This document shows positions 29,866 to 36,737 of a stretch of DNA of 64,000 nucleotides, in pieces. Within the stretch, counting starts at the first letter, position 1. Every line of letters begins with the position of its first letter. Location: the NCBI GenBank assembly GCA_015061815.1, contig SUVW01000009.1:1-64000 (forward strand). The letters run 5' to 3'. Both the position numbers and the translations under genes were made by a program. The notes beneath the pieces were generated by a model. That model saw nothing but the letters and a program-made list of their open reading frames with translations, was not told the DNA's origin and did no database searches. The DNA is from Lentisphaerota bacterium. GTDB taxonomy: Bacteria > Verrucomicrobiota > Lentisphaeria > Victivallales > Victivallaceae.

Positions 29866-30312
29866 TAATCAAAAACAACATTCTGTTTATCAAAAACGAT
29901 ATCGCAAAAAAAGAATTATCTTGGGTTATAAAATAATATAATATTGGTTATTATTATGAATTTGCGTAAAAAAAAAGATCGCCCGGATGAGTTACGCCAA
30001 GCATTAAAAATTCATCGAACGTTTCAAAAATCTTCACTATTTATGTAAAAAATGCAATAAAAGATGAACTGTATTTTTATAAACCCGATAAAAATAATGT
30101 TTCCAAAAAACACCAGCATTTATGAAAATGGGAAATTGGGAAATGGGGAAATGGTAGAAAATGAAAAAAATGGTAACATTCCACATATCTCAATGATATG
30201 CAATTTGTTATGCACAAATCATTCTCCTTTTGAATTTTTGCTTGCCAAATCGGATTGCGGATGATATATCACTTGCGGTGTTGAAGCTTTAATATCTTAA
30301 TAATATCGCGCC
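29866..30312. other. AT-rich stretch without a supported gene
   Basis: Long A and T runs dominate. A 30-codon frame at 29956-30048 (MNLRKKKDRPDELRQALKIH) lacks a Shine-Dalgarno site; it could be the broken start of a DNA-binding or phage protein, but this is not demonstrable. The 66-aa ORF at 30064-30264 spans GGGAAATGG-type low-complexity sequence and has no recognisable domain. Confidence 0.5.
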
Positions 30313-30540
30313 GGTCGCGGCAAGGTTCGGGTAAGTGGCAAAACGCAGCGAAAAAGCCCTTGTGAAGCCCTTTTGTAAAAAAAACTTCACAGAATTTTTG
30401 GCGAGAGTTGAAAAAATTGTCAGCGTTTTTTTATCTTCCCACGCCATTCTGAAGCGCATTTTGAGGTTGAAACTTCAGAATTTCGTTGTGAAATGAAATT
30501 CTGAAAATCCCTTCACTTTGGTTCAGGAAAACTCAGAATG
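30313..30540 (+). repeat. Dispersed ~228-bp repeat, copy 1
   Basis: This segment matches 35469-35696 in the same orientation, with scattered substitutions and a few 1-3 nt indels. Long shared runs include CTTGTGAAGCCCTTTTGT, AACTTCACAGAATTTTTG and CATTCTGAAGCGCATTTTGA. It contains internal inverted repeats (GTGAAG/CTTCAC; ATTCTGAAG/CTTCAGAAT). No intact reading frame crosses it. Candidates are a decayed non-autonomous element or a structured RNA element. Confidence 0.85.
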
Positions 30541-30950
30541 TACAGCAACGCCAAAAGAAAATTGACGAAAACGGCAAAAATCTTTCATTTGCCGCTTGCA
30601 ATTTTATTTATGGAAATTTCATTTCTTGGCGGCTTGATGCACGGATATCGCAGAAGCTGTAAAGCCGCGTAAATTTTAAACACATAATTTTCCGCAACGC
30701 AGCAGATAAAAGACTGCTGTGACGGTTCTTTCTGCTTAAATTCAAAAGAAAATCATCCAAACTCACCTTTTTGCCTTGCATTGCGGAGTTTTTGAAAAAT
30801 AAATCAGAGTTACTTGTATTTTCTTCTATGATGAAGTATATTATTGAAAGAGTTTACGGTCGGTGCCATTTTGCGGAGAAATGATTTTTTGCACCCTCCT
30901 AGGAAATTTCAAAAATTCACAAAGAGGATCGTTCAGCGAAGAAAAACTTT
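30541..30950. other. Non-coding stretch between repeat and operon
   Basis: No reading frame with a start, Shine-Dalgarno site and recognisable sequence is seen on either strand. Translation in several frames gives short peptides broken by stops, as in decayed coding DNA. The stretch ends at the promoter of the CsgG-like operon. Confidence 0.5.
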
Positions 30951-30952
30951 TC

Positions 30953-30980
30953 TTTGAATATGAAATTTTTGTGTTATATT
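30953..30980 (+). promoter_or_regulatory. Promoter of the CsgG-like/TPR operon
   Basis: TTTGAA, 16 bp, then TATATT, about 44 nt upstream of the ATG at 31024. The -10 is the same hexamer used by many other units in this window. Confidence 0.55.
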
Positions 30981-31023
30981 ATTGACCGCAGAAAGATAGA
31001 AATGATTGCTGTGGAGCAATGAG

Positions 31024-33477
31024 ATGAAAAAAATATTTCTTTGTATCATTATTTTAAGTATGGCTTGTGCTGATTTATTCAGCGCAGAAAATAATGTAGG
31101 TGACGGTGAAATTCCGGTTATTACCATTGAACCGATGCTCGACCGTATTGGTTGGTATATGTCACATAAAGCATACACATTTCAGACCCGTCTTTCAGCG
31201 GAGTTGTTTACCCGCTGGAAATGTCATATTTCAGCCCGCAACATCGGATTGCTACTCCATCAGGAGCGTTCATTGTCATCGCTTGAAAAACAGCTCGCTG
31301 CCATGCCGTCTCCGCAATGGATTGTCGGTGGTTCTTATCAAAAAGGGCGCAGGATGAATGGGAAATGGAGTGAAACAGATATTGAACTTTTGCTGATAAA
31401 TGCTGCTAATGGAGCTTTGCAGCGTGAAGTTTTCCGTGAAAAAGCAGGACATTACAAAGAGGCAAGATTTATTTCGGATCATATTGCCAAAAAATTGAAA
31501 CTTTCTCCCCGCAAAGTTGTCACTTCCGCAAGTGTTAACAGAAAAAATGAAACATGGGCGATTCTGCCGTTTTTTGATATAATGACAATCAAAGATTATA
31601 ATAAATCCAAAAAGTTTTCGGGAACCGATTATTTTGTCTATCAAATTCAGCAGAGCGGAAAATTGAAAAACATTGTTTCCCGGGAAAATATAGATAAAAT
31701 TTTTGCTGAACATAAGTTGCAGAGTCTCAATAATATAGATGCCGGAAGTGCCGCCGGAATCGGCAGATTACTTTCCGCTGACCGGATCATTTACGGAATG
31801 GTCACTAATGGCGAGGAAAAAGGAATCCGCAGGCTGGATATCCTGGCTGTTGATTGCAATTCCGGTGTGGTGGTCAACGCTTTTACCGGCACATTTACAA
31901 ATGAAACACAGGAATCTGAACTTGCCAAAGCCGCTGTAACTATTTTGAACGTTCCCGATTTATTGCCGCCGACCGGCGGTGGGAAATTCAACGCTGAGGC
32001 AATTGATATTGAATCAAAGCGGCTGCTTGATGTTATCCGCAAATCCCGTTTTCAGTATCGAAGTACTTCCGTTTTAAGCGGACAGATCCTTTCGCTTGCA
32101 GAAAGCTATTTTTTGCTCAATTCCAAAGACCACTTCCGTTGTCTGGTTCTTGCTCATGAACTGGTGTGGAATCTTTATTTCCGGTATTGTCCGGAGCATT
32201 GGTATCATATCTACTCCGATAAATCCAAGCCAAACCGTTCGGATCTGACCACTACAGAAGAACAAAGTAAAATGGCAGCCAACTTCCTGTTGCCGATACT
32301 TGACAGGTTGCGCTATCGTTCGATTGCAGAATATAATGATTCTATCGGACGGTTGAAGTTCCGATTGTTGGTAAATGCCGGCAGGTGTGATGAAGCCGAA
32401 GCTATCTGGCGCAATCGGACAGACGGTGGTTTGGATATAACCGATTATGATATGGGAATGTTGGAAATGCGGCGTAAAAATTTCCGCAAAGGCGGCGATT
32501 ATTTCCTTAAATCCCAGCGTCCCGGACATGCGTTGTACGCATATTATTTGAGCGGAGACCACAAACTCGCGTATAAAACCGGAGTGGAAGCAAAGCCGCT
32601 ATTTACCCCTCGTTACAGCGAAGAATTTCTGATTTGGATCGAATTGGTTGAAAAATACGGTACACCTGGCGATGCTTTAAAGTGGCTTGAGGCTTTTGAA
32701 GAGTACGGCAAAAAAGAATCCACATACTACAAAAATTGTTTCTTTAATATCGGACTGAACAAAATTGCCGCAGAAAAAATCAAGCAACTGCGTGCCAGCA
32801 GTAACCAGATTAAATTTTATCCTGCCAAAGAGCTGTTTGCCCAATGGACAAAATATCCAGTCTATTTTCAGGGATTGGGAAATATGCCGCCCAAAGAAGT
32901 TGAGTCTGCAGCCGCAATGCTTGAAAAAGAACTCGGTCTGACAGTAAAAATCCTGCCGGTGCGTCCTTTGCCGGTCAAGGGAGCGTATGATGCCGGACAC
33001 CATGCATTTGCTGCCGGTAAATTGGAATTGGCGGTGCGTTACGCATACGGAGACGCGTTTCCGACCGATGGTATGTTATTTTATATTCTGCTGTCAGATG
33101 CAATAAATGATGATGGTATAAATGTGCTTTTTAACAATTTGCCGGATTTCGGTATAGCCTCTTTTTCAAGAATGCCGATTGCTGCAACGACGGTTGATTC
33201 AGTTAAACTGATTGCAGTTTCGACGACCCGCCAGATTTTGAACAACACTATGCGTGAAAATAAGTATTGCAACAATTATCCCTGTATGATGGCGGCGATT
33301 TCAAGTTTCAGCCGGTGTAACGAATTGGATTTCAAAATCTGTTCCGAATGTATGCCAGTTATTAAGAAGGGCAATATCCGGCGGGCGTTGCGCCGTATGG
33401 CAAACCGGAATGTTGAAAGACATTGTTCACAAGCAGAAATTAAAAAATTTGAAGAATATAAAAAGGAGTGGAAATGA
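31024..33477 (+). CDS. CsgG-like / helical-repeat / degenerate archaemetzincin fusion protein
   Basis: The product has 817 residues from MKKIFLCIIILSMACADLFSAE, a signal peptide, with GGAG 8 nt upstream; the ORF-track TTG start is rejected. Residues ~25-155 and ~176-310 are two CsgG-like domains; the second reads IVSRENIDKIFAEHKLQ, then IGRLLSADRIIYGMV. Residues ~330-600 are helical, TPR-like. Residues ~605-790 match archaemetzincins: GNMPPKEVESAAAMLEKELG, LPVKGAYDAGHHAFAAGKL, and a C-x4-C-x-M-x16-C-x2-C zinc-knuckle (C749, C754, M756, C773, C776) close to the family's C-x4-C-x-M-x17-C-x2-C. The HExxHxxGxxH zinc site is absent: ILNNTMRENKY stands in its place. The third domain is therefore probably a non-catalytic binding module in an exported protein. 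It overlaps the next gene by 4 nt. Confidence 0.7.
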   Translation: MKKIFLCIIILSMACADLFSAENNVGDGEIPVITIEPMLDRIGWYMSHKAYTFQTRLSAELFTRWKCHISARNIGLLLHQERSLSSLEKQLAAMPSPQWIVGGSYQKGRRMNGKWSETDIELLLINAANGALQREVFREKAGHYKEARFISDHIAKKLKLSPRKVVTSASVNRKNETWAILPFFDIMTIKDYNKSKKFSGTDYFVYQIQQSGKLKNIVSRENIDKIFAEHKLQSLNNIDAGSAAGIGRLLSADRIIYGMVTNGEEKGIRRLDILAVDCNSGVVVNAFTGTFTNETQESELAKAAVTILNVPDLLPPTGGGKFNAEAIDIESKRLLDVIRKSRFQYRSTSVLSGQILSLAESYFLLNSKDHFRCLVLAHELVWNLYFRYCPEHWYHIYSDKSKPNRSDLTTTEEQSKMAANFLLPILDRLRYRSIAEYNDSIGRLKFRLLVNAGRCDEAEAIWRNRTDGGLDITDYDMGMLEMRRKNFRKGGDYFLKSQRPGHALYAYYLSGDHKLAYKTGVEAKPLFTPRYSEEFLIWIELVEKYGTPGDALKWLEAFEEYGKKESTYYKNCFFNIGLNKIAAEKIKQLRASSNQIKFYPAKELFAQWTKYPVYFQGLGNMPPKEVESAAAMLEKELGLTVKILPVRPLPVKGAYDAGHHAFAAGKLELAVRYAYGDAFPTDGMLFYILLSDAINDDGINVLFNNLPDFGIASFSRMPIAATTVDSVKLIAVSTTRQILNNTMRENKYCNNYPCMMAAISSFSRCNELDFKICSECMPVIKKGNIRRALRRMANRNVERHCSQAEIKKFEEYKKEWK

Positions 33478-34370
33478 AAAAAATTCTGATTGCAGTTTTT
33501 TTGAGTTTAAGCGTTTTTTCTCTCATGGGAAATACCTATGAAAAGCAGATGCAGCAGGCTGAACAACTTTTCAAGTCAAAGAAATTCAAAGATGCCGCTG
33601 TCGCTTTTGATGATGCTTCTCTGGAAACCGAAGATGCTCAAAAACGTATCAATGCAAGATTCCGCAGTTGGGAGTGTTTGCAAGAGCTACGAAGCCGTGA
33701 TGCTGTTTCTACCGCAGAATCTCTGCTTTATGATGAACCGGAGTTGAGTTTCGAGCGCAAAATCAAACTCATGTCATATATCGCCCGGCATGGCAAAAAA
33801 GAAAACCGTGAAAAAGTTTTGAGTTTCGGACTCAATTTGAAAGGTCTCTCTGAAAGAGAGCGTAGTCAGATTCTGCTTGTAGCCTTGAAAACTCAGGGTA
33901 CCTGGCAGAGCGAAGCCTACGTCAAAGAAATCCTTGCCATGAAAGATCCTGATCCGGCAGCGAAGGCAAATGCACTCGGAGATTTGGCAAATGTTTATCT
34001 GTGGAGTAAACGCGATCCTGTCAATGCGCTGAAATATGTCAATGAAGCACTGGCAATAAAAGAACTTCAGGGACAGGAACGGCAATTTTATCTGCTGGTT
34101 CAGGCTCGTTCATATATCGGAGTCAAGCGTTTTGACATGGCAGAGAGAAGCTATCGTGCCGCTATAAAGATCGGTAAACAGCACAATTTTCAGGAAGCGG
34201 CATACAATGAACTTATCCGGGTTTATGTTATGACCAAACAGGGAATGAAAATTGAGCCGCTTGTAAAGCAGGCAATAACTGATAAACGGTTGGTAAAACG
34301 TCAACGGCAGGTTTTTTCCAATCTGCTGGCTCAAATTGAAAAAGCAAAACAACAACAAAACGGGAGATAA
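33474..34370 (+). CDS. Secreted TPR-like repeat protein
   Basis: The product has 298 residues. The ATG overlaps the previous stop (ATGA) and has a strong AAGGAG site. A signal peptide (MKKILIAVFLSLSVFSLMGN) is followed by helical repeats of the TPR type: YEKQMQQAEQLFKSKKFKDA, LGDLANVYLWSKRDPVNALK, YLLVQARSYIGVKRFDMAER and YNELIRVYVMTKQGM. The mature protein is probably periplasmic or outer-membrane associated and acts as a scaffold for the two CsgG-like partners. No catalytic motif is seen. The gene lies between the two CsgG-like genes and 3 nt from the next. Confidence 0.75.
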   Translation: MKKILIAVFLSLSVFSLMGNTYEKQMQQAEQLFKSKKFKDAAVAFDDASLETEDAQKRINARFRSWECLQELRSRDAVSTAESLLYDEPELSFERKIKLMSYIARHGKKENREKVLSFGLNLKGLSERERSQILLVALKTQGTWQSEAYVKEILAMKDPDPAAKANALGDLANVYLWSKRDPVNALKYVNEALAIKELQGQERQFYLLVQARSYIGVKRFDMAERSYRAAIKIGKQHNFQEAAYNELIRVYVMTKQGMKIEPLVKQAITDKRLVKRQRQVFSNLLAQIEKAKQQQNGR

Positions 34371-34373
34371 AAA

Positions 34374-35336
34374 ATGTTACGTTCCAAAAAAATCTTTTCA
34401 GTGATGGCAGTTTTTCTTATTTCTTCAATTGCGCTTGCTGATTCAGTGATAATTTTCAATCCGATGTTGATTGACGGCAAAGGAGTTGATGCCGGACTGT
34501 TCAATGATATTGTTTCAGCAGAGCTGTCTTGCTCTGAGCAGATAAAATTGGTCGATCGTGAACAGCTTGATAAATTGCTTCGTGAAAGAGCTCTCAAACC
34601 TAACGGAATGCTCAATGCTGATGATGTCAGTAATATAGGTTCTCTGCTCGGTGCGGACAGTTTTGTTTCGGGTTCGGTTCGGGAAAAAGGTGATAAGCTT
34701 ATGATTTTTGTGAAAACCATCTCCGTTAAAACCGGTGTGGTTAAAATGAAATATATTAATGTTGCCAATAATCTTGAAAGTGCAGCCGAAAAGACTGCCC
34801 AAACTGCGATTGATTTGATCAAAAGTCAGAAAGCTGCAGTAAATTCCGTATCAACGAAAATAGAAATTCTTGTACCGGAAAAAAAGAGACCGGTTGTAGC
34901 AATATTTATTCCGGAAATTCATATTGCAAGTCAGCGTTTGATTGATCCGGCAGCAGAAAATGAATTGACCAAATTTTTCCTGACACAGAAGTTTCCGGTG
35001 AAACAGCTTGCGCCTTTAGCTGTCGGACAGAATGGTTTACTTGATAATCTGATTGGAAATCGTACAAAATTGGTGGAAGCGGCGGAGAAAGTCGGAGCTG
35101 CTTATCTTATTTTCGGCGAAGCCATTTCTGAATCTTCAGATACCTTTGGCAATTATCGTACTTCCAGAGCTCGTGTTGAACTTAAAATAATATCTACAGC
35201 AAATAATAACATAGTTTGGGCAGACAGTGCGTATGCTGGTGCCGCAGATACAGCAGAAATCATTTCCGGCAAAAAGGCGATACAGAAAGCTGCAGTAAAA
35301 CTTGCACTCAAAGCCGCAGATGTTTTGTTGAAGTAA
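34374..35336 (+). CDS. Double CsgG-like secreted protein
   Basis: The product has 320 residues with a signal peptide (IFSVMAVFLISSIALA). Residues ~25-150 form a CsgG-like domain: IKLVDREQLDKLLRERALK, NIGSLLGADSFVSGSVREKG, then VKTISVKTGVVKM. Residues ~170-318 repeat the same logic more loosely (RPVVAIFIPEIHIASQRLID, EKVGAAYLIFGEAISES, RVELKIISTANNNIVW). CsgG itself forms the curli secretion pore; the wider family includes periplasmic or outer-membrane proteins of unknown role. No lipobox cysteine is visible. GGGAG precedes the ATG, and a terminator follows 80 nt downstream, closing the three-gene operon. Confidence 0.75.
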   Translation: MLRSKKIFSVMAVFLISSIALADSVIIFNPMLIDGKGVDAGLFNDIVSAELSCSEQIKLVDREQLDKLLRERALKPNGMLNADDVSNIGSLLGADSFVSGSVREKGDKLMIFVKTISVKTGVVKMKYINVANNLESAAEKTAQTAIDLIKSQKAAVNSVSTKIEILVPEKKRPVVAIFIPEIHIASQRLIDPAAENELTKFFLTQKFPVKQLAPLAVGQNGLLDNLIGNRTKLVEAAEKVGAAYLIFGEAISESSDTFGNYRTSRARVELKIISTANNNIVWADSAYAGAADTAEIISGKKAIQKAAVKLALKAADVLLK

Positions 35337-35415
35337 GGATGGTACCGGCGTTTCAACATATAAGTAAAACACACATAAAGGTTTCCCGGAACGATGATAG
35401 CGGGAAATAGCTTCG

Positions 35416-35444
35416 GCGGCAGGAGAAATCTTGCCGCTTTTTTT
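35416..35444 (+). terminator. Intrinsic terminator of the CsgG-like operon
   Basis: GCGGCA pairs with TGCCGC around an ~10-nt loop, followed directly by seven T residues. Confidence 0.8.
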
Positions 35445-35468
35445 GCGTTTACACTCGGCGTGTTGCGA

Positions 35469-35696
35469 CGGTTGCGGTAAAGGTCGGGTAAGTGGCAAAA
35501 AGCAGCACAAAAGCCCTTGTGAAGCCCTTTTGTGAAAAAAACTTCACAGAATTTTTGTCAGACTTGAAAAATTTGCCAGCGTTTTTTTATCTTTCCCCGC
35601 CATTCTGAAGCGCATTTTGAGCTTAAAACTTTAGAATCTTGCTGTGAAATAAATTTCTGAAAATCGCTTCACTTTTGTTCTCAAACATTCAGAATG
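35469..35696 (+). repeat. Dispersed ~228-bp repeat, copy 2
   Basis: Direct-orientation match to 30313-30540. Here the distal half is framed by a 9-bp inverted repeat, CATTCTGAA (35601-35609) and TTCAGAATG (35688-35696). The copy overlaps the last codons and stop of the membrane-protein gene that converges on it from the right. The two copies bracket the three-gene CsgG-like operon. Confidence 0.85.
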
Positions 35697-36309
35697 GCTG
35701 ATTTTTGTTTTGATTATTTTCTGTTTCAGGTGGTTCAGCGGTTCGTGTATACTGCGGGAAAAACAAAATACGGATTGTCATAATCGCGGTCAACAGCAAT
35801 AATGGCAATAAAACAATGCTTCCCAGAATGATTACAAGATTATCAGAGCTATCATATTTGATGGTTGAAAGCAAGTAAGTATTCAATGCTGCATATATGG
35901 AAAAAGTCCCCCAAGGGATTACTGTTTTCATTAGTTTTTTCATTCGGCAACAAAAAGCAGTTGTGGTTAAAACAAGAATGGGACTGAAATATAAAAATTC
36001 TAGTTGCAGAAATAACAATTTCATTCCTTCCATACCGCTTATATGGTTGATTTTGTCAGCAGCAACTACCAAACCGAAAGTAATAATGCCTGCAAACAAA
36101 GTAAAAAGTATTATGCGCAGATAATCCCATTTGTTTCCGTAAAATGCTGGATAAAAAAAAGGAGAAGCTAATACCAGATAACCAATATAGCATATAACGA
36201 AAAAAACTTCTATGTTGTGTGAAAATTTGGGGCGAAATGCAACAAAACCGGAAACGATGATTCCAAGCACTGCAAAAACATATTTTAATATTTTGTGATT
36301 GACAGACAT
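35689..36309 (-). CDS. Polytopic membrane protein of unknown function
   Basis: The product has 206 residues with about six hydrophobic segments, e.g. YVFAVLGIIVSGFVAF, IILFTLFAGIITFGLVVA and NLVIILGSIVLLPLLLLTAI. It has a short polar C-terminal tail rich in Asn, Gln and Pro. A GGGGAAG Shine-Dalgarno site supports the start. No family is recognised. The stop codon lies inside repeat copy 2, so the natural C-terminus may have been altered by that element. It is transcribed towards the CsgG-like operon. Confidence 0.6.
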   Translation of the reverse strand: MSVNHKILKYVFAVLGIIVSGFVAFRPKFSHNIEVFFVICYIGYLVLASPFFYPAFYGNKWDYLRIILFTLFAGIITFGLVVAADKINHISGMEGMKLLFLQLEFLYFSPILVLTTTAFCCRMKKLMKTVIPWGTFSIYAALNTYLLSTIKYDSSDNLVIILGSIVLLPLLLLTAIMTIRILFFPQYTRTAEPPETENNQNKNQPF

Positions 36310-36646: not shown

Positions 36647-36652
36647 ATGGCG
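36626..36652 (-). terminator. Large hairpin at the 3' end of tRNA-Ser
   Basis: CGCCATTTTTTT and AAAAAAAATGGCG form a nearly perfect stem around GC. On the minus strand one arm starts within the encoded CCA end of the tRNA. It can act as a terminator or a processing signal, although the T-rich tract is inside the stem rather than after it. Confidence 0.5.
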
Positions 36653-36737
36653 GAGAGAGAGGGATTCGAACCCTCGGTGAGGTTGCCCCCACAGCGATTT
36701 TCGAGACCGCCGCCTTAGACCACTCAGCCATCTCTCC
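36648..36737 (-). tRNA. tRNA-Ser (anticodon CGA)
   Basis: Read on the minus strand, GGAGAGA pairs with TCTCTCC in the acceptor stem. The anticodon stem is GCGGT/ATCGC around loop CTCGAAA, giving anticodon CGA (reads UCG). The long variable arm GTGGGGGCAACCTCAC and GGTTCGAATCC T-arm are typical of class II serine tRNAs. CCA is encoded. The 90-nt length matches the bacterial tRNA-Ser(CGA). Confidence 0.96.

Follow-up and report, generated by a model that had tools for sequence, protein, structure and literature searches.

An accessory three-gene operon of gut Lentisphaeria encoding LpoB/CsgG-type domains and a pseudo-archaemetzincin domain

A gut Lentisphaeria bacterium carries a three-gene operon that, to judge from comparison of related genomes, is real, evolutionarily maintained and exchanged between genera. 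Its first gene joins LpoB/CsgG-type domains to a protease domain whose catalytic motif is gone, the second encodes a TPR-like protein and the third a double LpoB/CsgG-type protein. The reading that we favour, with a probability of about 40%, is that of an accessory, horizontally exchanged periplasmic scaffold in which the dead protease domain would bind a ligand. Positions are those of the window, the whole 64,000-nucleotide stretch of contig SUVW01000009.1 (assembly GCA_015061815.1) that was analysed.

Operon layout and expression signals

The features of the operon are listed below.

30954..30982, + strand: promoter-like site 5' of gene 1, 9/12 consensus matches, weak
31024..33477, + strand: gene 1, 817 aa, signal-peptide-like start; two LpoB/CsgG-type domains, a helical middle and a pseudo-archaemetzincin domain
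31105..31518, + strand: gene 1 domain 1, aa 28-165, probable LpoB/CsgG-type domain (hhalign)
31543..31983, + strand: gene 1 domain 2, aa 174-320, LpoB/CsgG-type domain (Pfam CsgG and hhalign)
31996..32835, + strand: gene 1 helical middle, aa 325-604, helices predicted at low confidence, TPR matches in relatives
32836..33372, + strand: gene 1 pseudo-archaemetzincin domain, aa 605-783; HExxHxxGxxH lost, C749-x4-C754-x-M756 and C773-x2-C776 kept
33474..34370, + strand: gene 2, 298 aa, signal-peptide-like start, TPR-like; orthologues in five genomes
34374..35336, + strand: gene 3, 320 aa, signal-peptide-like start; double LpoB/CsgG-type protein without a lipobox
34437..34838, + strand: gene 3 N-domain, aa 22-155 (Pfam LpoB 7.6e-10, CsgG 9.3e-7)
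34887..35333, + strand: gene 3 C-domain, aa 172-320, probably a repeat of the N-domain fold (hhalign)
35415..35448, + strand: strong intrinsic terminator-like hairpin, 10-bp stem and T-run

A preliminary description of this DNA had proposed three overlapping or tightly spaced genes for exported proteins, served by one promoter and ending at a strong terminator, and this layout holds. Genes 1 and 2 overlap in an ATGA, three bases separate genes 2 and 3, a Shine-Dalgarno-like sequence precedes each gene, and the N-termini of all three products are signal-peptide-like by inspection. The promoter-like site is a weak one, in a region where such matches are in modest excess (19 against 12.2 +/- 3.7 in shuffles), and the hairpin with its T-run follows gene 3. 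Inspection found no proper lipobox in the products of genes 1-3, and likewise none in the relatives of genes 1 and 3. The TPR assignment of gene 2 is borne out by a Pfam TPR match that lies under the cut-off.

LpoB/CsgG-type domains in genes 1 and 3

Each of genes 1 and 3 had been described as carrying two CsgG-like domains; in each, one such domain is clear and a second is probable, and the CsgG label itself fares less well, as LpoB outscores CsgG in gene 3. Both Pfam matches of the gene 3 N-domain exceed the cut-off, and in a full-length alignment of gene 3 relatives (n=21) this domain matches CsgG in 21/21 and LpoB in 20/21. The C-domain matches the N-domain only weakly by hhalign (probability 52.6, score 30.6; shuffled maximum 16.7), and the order of strands and helices is alike in the two halves of a low-confidence model (pLDDT 51), so that gene 3 is best read as one clear and one probable LpoB/CsgG-type domain. 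In gene 1, domain 2 is clearly homologous to the gene 3 N-domain (hhalign probability 98.5, score 90.7; shuffled maximum 22.7) and has a Pfam CsgG match slightly under the cut-off (E 7e-4), and domain 1 is probably homologous to the same N-domain (probability 76.9, score 36.1; shuffled maximum 15.9).

The Pfam CsgG search that had been put forward as a check thus succeeded above the cut-off for gene 3 and fell just below it for gene 1, and in both cases only about residues 40-100 of the 210-residue CsgG profile are aligned. With the NCBIfam LpoB model gene 3 scores 1.1e-7 and 32 bits, short of the equivalog cut-off of 110.55. Structure prediction, also put forward as a check, gave a gene 3 model that supports the LpoB/CsgG fold class, whilst gene 1, predicted from four sequences, reached a pLDDT of 35. 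Foldseek with the gene 3 model places PelC, LpoB and TolB at the top, followed by CsgG, GNA1162 and FlgT; its output does not indicate which half was matched, and these hits support the fold class with nearest members that are not specifically CsgG. PDB searches returned nothing significant with a 21-row gene 3 profile (CsgG at E about 1) and no match with a 6-row full-length gene 1 profile, nor did single-sequence phmmer give one.

The domains are about 135-150 aa long, near the size of LpoB, and their length together with the strands predicted in the low-confidence model would leave little space for amphipathic pore hairpins. Overall the domains of genes 1 and 3 resemble LpoB, PelC and TolB-N at least as much as CsgG. 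PelC (Pel polysaccharide export) and TolB-N rank among the highest structural matches of the low-confidence gene 3 model, but gene 3 is a tandem pair with no TolB propeller, and no Pel genes were noted alongside.

A conserved pseudo-protease domain

The degenerate archaemetzincin domain proposed for gene 1 was recovered by profile methods, which were needed because Pfam M54 scans of single sequences matched neither gene 1 nor any of the 13 domain relatives. Aligned by hhalign with M54 sequences of the same phylum, the 13 domain relatives gave a probability of 98.6 and a score of 114.6 (117.9 after one off-family row was dropped), against maxima of 24.3 for 60 column-shuffles and 24.2 for the rest of gene 1, and 17.9 for the reversed alignment. 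Searched against the PDB, the 13-sequence domain profile matched the archaemetzincins 4axq (4e-11), 3zvs (7e-11), 2x7m (4e-5) and 3lmc (0.02), with no other match at E < 1. By these comparisons the C-terminal domain of gene 1 is homologous to archaemetzincins (Peptidase_M54, PF07998) over its whole length.

The domain differs from archaemetzincins in having none of the His and Glu residues of HExxHxxGxxH: the catalytic motif is missing in 13/13 relatives, and the window's gene 1 protein has no His from residue 731 to 749. The structural zinc site is kept, its four cysteines being invariant in 13/13 sequences, and the archaemetzincin Cys4 signature, C-x4-C-x-M-x17-C-x2-C (PMC3427221), is found in the window protein as C749, C754, M756, C773 and C776 with a spacer of 16 residues. 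In known archaemetzincins the cysteines of this site are required for stability, and CarG of Myxococcus xanthus, an inactive archaemetzincin-type protein that forms part of a regulator, also needs its cysteines (PMC3427221). The gene 1 domain resembles CarG in being, by its motif, catalytically inactive, and differs from both CarG and the archaemetzincins in its fusion to an export-signal protein with LpoB/CsgG-type domains. Pairwise dN/dS of the domain between operons of different species (against L013/L014) is 0.08-0.09, and the dead domain is therefore maintained; judged by motif loss and substitution rate, the C-terminus of gene 1 is a conserved pseudo-protease.

Distribution and selection

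A neighbourhood survey, which had been suggested as a further check, found the order gene 1, gene 2, gene 3 conserved in five genomes, all belonging to a single family (the window's genome, G005, G033, G068 and G056). A sixth genome, G067, has a gene 1 relative beside which genes 2 and 3 were not recognised, and the operon is absent from most genomes of the window's genus. The closest relatives are Lentisphaeria metagenome bins, one of them from roe-deer colon. Where dS could be estimated, pairwise dN/dS of the operon genes against L013/L014 was 0.07-0.13, which indicates that purifying selection acts on all three.

In a profile search across the phylum full-length matches were confined to the order, in other families of which distant full-length gene 1 relatives occur and pairs of genes 1 and 3 recur. 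A gene 3 relative lies directly upstream of a gene 1 relative in G082, G083 and G087, and one other gene separates the two in G088. G087 has three gene 1 relatives in tandem behind its gene 3 relative, and these tandem genes adjoin a divergent alpha-2-macroglobulin gene. In some of the distant gene 1 relatives a CBM9 or PA14 module is attached at one terminus or the other (L085:5640-15874, L088:2842-6714); such modules, of which there are none in the five three-gene operons, are the sole pointer to a class of ligand and may be taken as a hint. No conserved gene for a secreted substrate was found beside the operon.

A related operon lies 40 kb away on the same contig, outside the window (G000 contig C4 74082-81195, L018:82-7195, minus strand). 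Its seven genes encode an ECF sigma factor, a putative membrane anti-sigma protein, a 238-aa protein, a double LpoB/CsgG-type protein and three large proteins with signal-like starts, and sets like it recur across the family.

Horizontal transfer and the tRNA-Ser neighbourhood

Further features around the operon are the following.

30308..30540, + strand: left direct repeat, 233 bp, 87% identity with the right copy
35465..35697, + strand: right direct repeat, 233 bp, bracketing the operon together with the left copy
36648..36737, - strand: tRNA-Ser(CGA), with the operon on its 3' side

The operons of the window and of G005, a genome of another genus, are 97.7% identical at the nucleotide level across 4.7 kb (window 30879-35598), with identity ending at both sides, whereas the AlaRS of the two is 77% identical; between G056 and the window AlaRS is 90% identical and gene 1 only 49%. 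Misbinning was considered as a source of the 98% match and rejected: the flank of the G005 contig is collinear with G006, of the same genus as G005 (83% over 5.7 kb), which argues for transfer rather than misbinning. Judged by these identities, the operon has been transferred horizontally between genera.

A tRNA-Ser lies near the operon in three of the five genomes. G005 resembles the window in that operon and right repeat both lie 3' of a tRNA-Ser. G056 shows the reverse arrangement, with a tRNA-Ser(GGA) upstream of gene 1, and the tRNA-Ser(CGA) that this genome retains at the syntenic alaS position has no operon. The examined flanks of the G033 and G068 operons hold no tRNA, and the contigs of G006, G033 and G004 stop within about 110-500 bp of the tRNA-Ser 3' side. 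Full or partial copies of the 233-bp repeat (in the window and at loci L128 and L129) lie 3' of all three tRNA-Ser genes found in the window's genome (on C4, C13 and C25), and a further partial copy is on C3. On C25 repeat copies also separate other cargo genes, one of which resembles a BRO-type protein. Between the right repeat and the tRNA-Ser of the window lies a gene for a 206-aa membrane protein without a Pfam match (35689-36309).

Of the usual marks of a genomic island, tRNA adjacency and foreign origin are seen, but integrase and att duplication are not: no integrase was recognised on inspection of the ORFs beside the operon, and the tRNA 3' end is present in the window as a single copy, no duplicate having been found. 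Beside two of the operons, L131:22-369 and L014:8183-9250 look on inspection like an IS66 TnpB and an IS110-type transposase.

Possible functions

The view that this is not a curli locus stands, CsgE and CsgF being absent from the whole draft genome (94% complete). The literature search returned nothing combining CsgG with an archaemetzincin, a weak absence given poor coverage of subscription journals, and among reports on CsgG with Lentisphaerae, Planctomycetes or ECF sigma factors it returned no account of such a system, again a weak absence. The three-gene set thus appears to match no described system, as had been supposed. TPR and LpoB-like domains, being common, do not by themselves define a function.

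One alternative is that gene 3 acts in the manner of LpoB (PF13036), the activator of PBP1b, on a penicillin-binding protein, with genes 1 and 2 co-regulating a peptidoglycan synthase. LpoB is the best Pfam match of gene 3, a weak NCBIfam LpoB match agrees with it, and LpoB is among the top folds of the low-confidence model; yet the score is far under the equivalog cut-off, LpoB is a lipoprotein whereas gene 3 has two tandem domains and no lipobox, and the neighbours differ, with no PBP gene adjoining the operon. As the operon is missing from most genomes of the genus it is not a core cell-wall factor, and we regard an LpoB-like role as rather unlikely. The multi-CsgG assembly of the preliminary description leads to another alternative, in which the products of genes 1 and 3 would form the ring of an outer-membrane pore of the CsgG/MafA kind that secretes some substrate. 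The profile match to the periplasmic core of CsgG (PF03783), the curli secretion channel, and the fold similarity to CsgG and PelC are in keeping with this, as by analogy is MafA, for which a resemblance to CsgG has been proposed and which genomic islands encode for the secretion of a competition toxin (PMC7738311), a setting parallel to the mobile one here. Genes 1 and 3 nevertheless have no lipobox and their domains would offer little space for two pore hairpins, so that a CsgG-like channel is not supported; with PelC, LpoB and TolB ahead of CsgG, no CsgE or CsgF in the genome and no conserved substrate gene alongside, we consider such a pore improbable.

The ECF-sigma-linked operon on the same contig suggests a further role, as an envelope sensor or surface-signalling module, since it pairs an ECF sigma factor and a putative anti-sigma protein with a double LpoB/CsgG-type protein and sets like it are found elsewhere in the family. 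Against this, neither the window nor the four syntenic relatives have a sigma or anti-sigma gene next to the three-gene operon, and we think a sensor of this kind unlikely. The patchy distribution, transfer between genera, repeats and tRNA-Ser neighbourhood would also suit island cargo directed against phage or competitors. PADLOC, however, matched only a generic TPR model on the operon, all three proteins have signal-peptide-like starts, and no relatives were found in phage, plasmid or viral-contig collections, which leaves a defence role very improbable.

We return to the periplasmic scaffold, for which we infer localisation, assembly and ligand of the three-protein set from sequence. Known members of the LpoB/PelC/CsgG-type fold bind envelope machines or form rings. 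The products of genes 1 and 3, which are linked by synteny, may assemble through their domains of this type, with gene 2 and the helical middle of gene 1 acting as spacers or clamps. The pseudo-archaemetzincin domain, held by its Cys4 zinc site, would be a ligand-binding module and not an enzyme; the preliminary description had put forward a peptide as what it may bind. Most likely the assembly would dock on a glycan, either of the envelope or extracellular, or on the machinery that produces this glycan, a proposal made because of the CBM9 and PA14 modules of distant gene 1 relatives. A more specific version, which we hold to be doubtful, is a mobile periplasmic machine in which the tandem LpoB/CsgG-type domains of two proteins form a ring or scaffold presenting a sensor domain, pseudo-archaemetzincin here and glycan-binding in relatives, the whole having spread as a repeat-flanked cassette at tRNA-Ser without its own integrase.

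If the scaffold reading is true, a dead metzincin would have been recruited as a binding module within an envelope assembly, and the LpoB/PelC/CsgG fold would have a lineage-specific role besides secretion and peptidoglycan control. It would also point to tRNA-Ser-associated gene exchange in gut Lentisphaeria.
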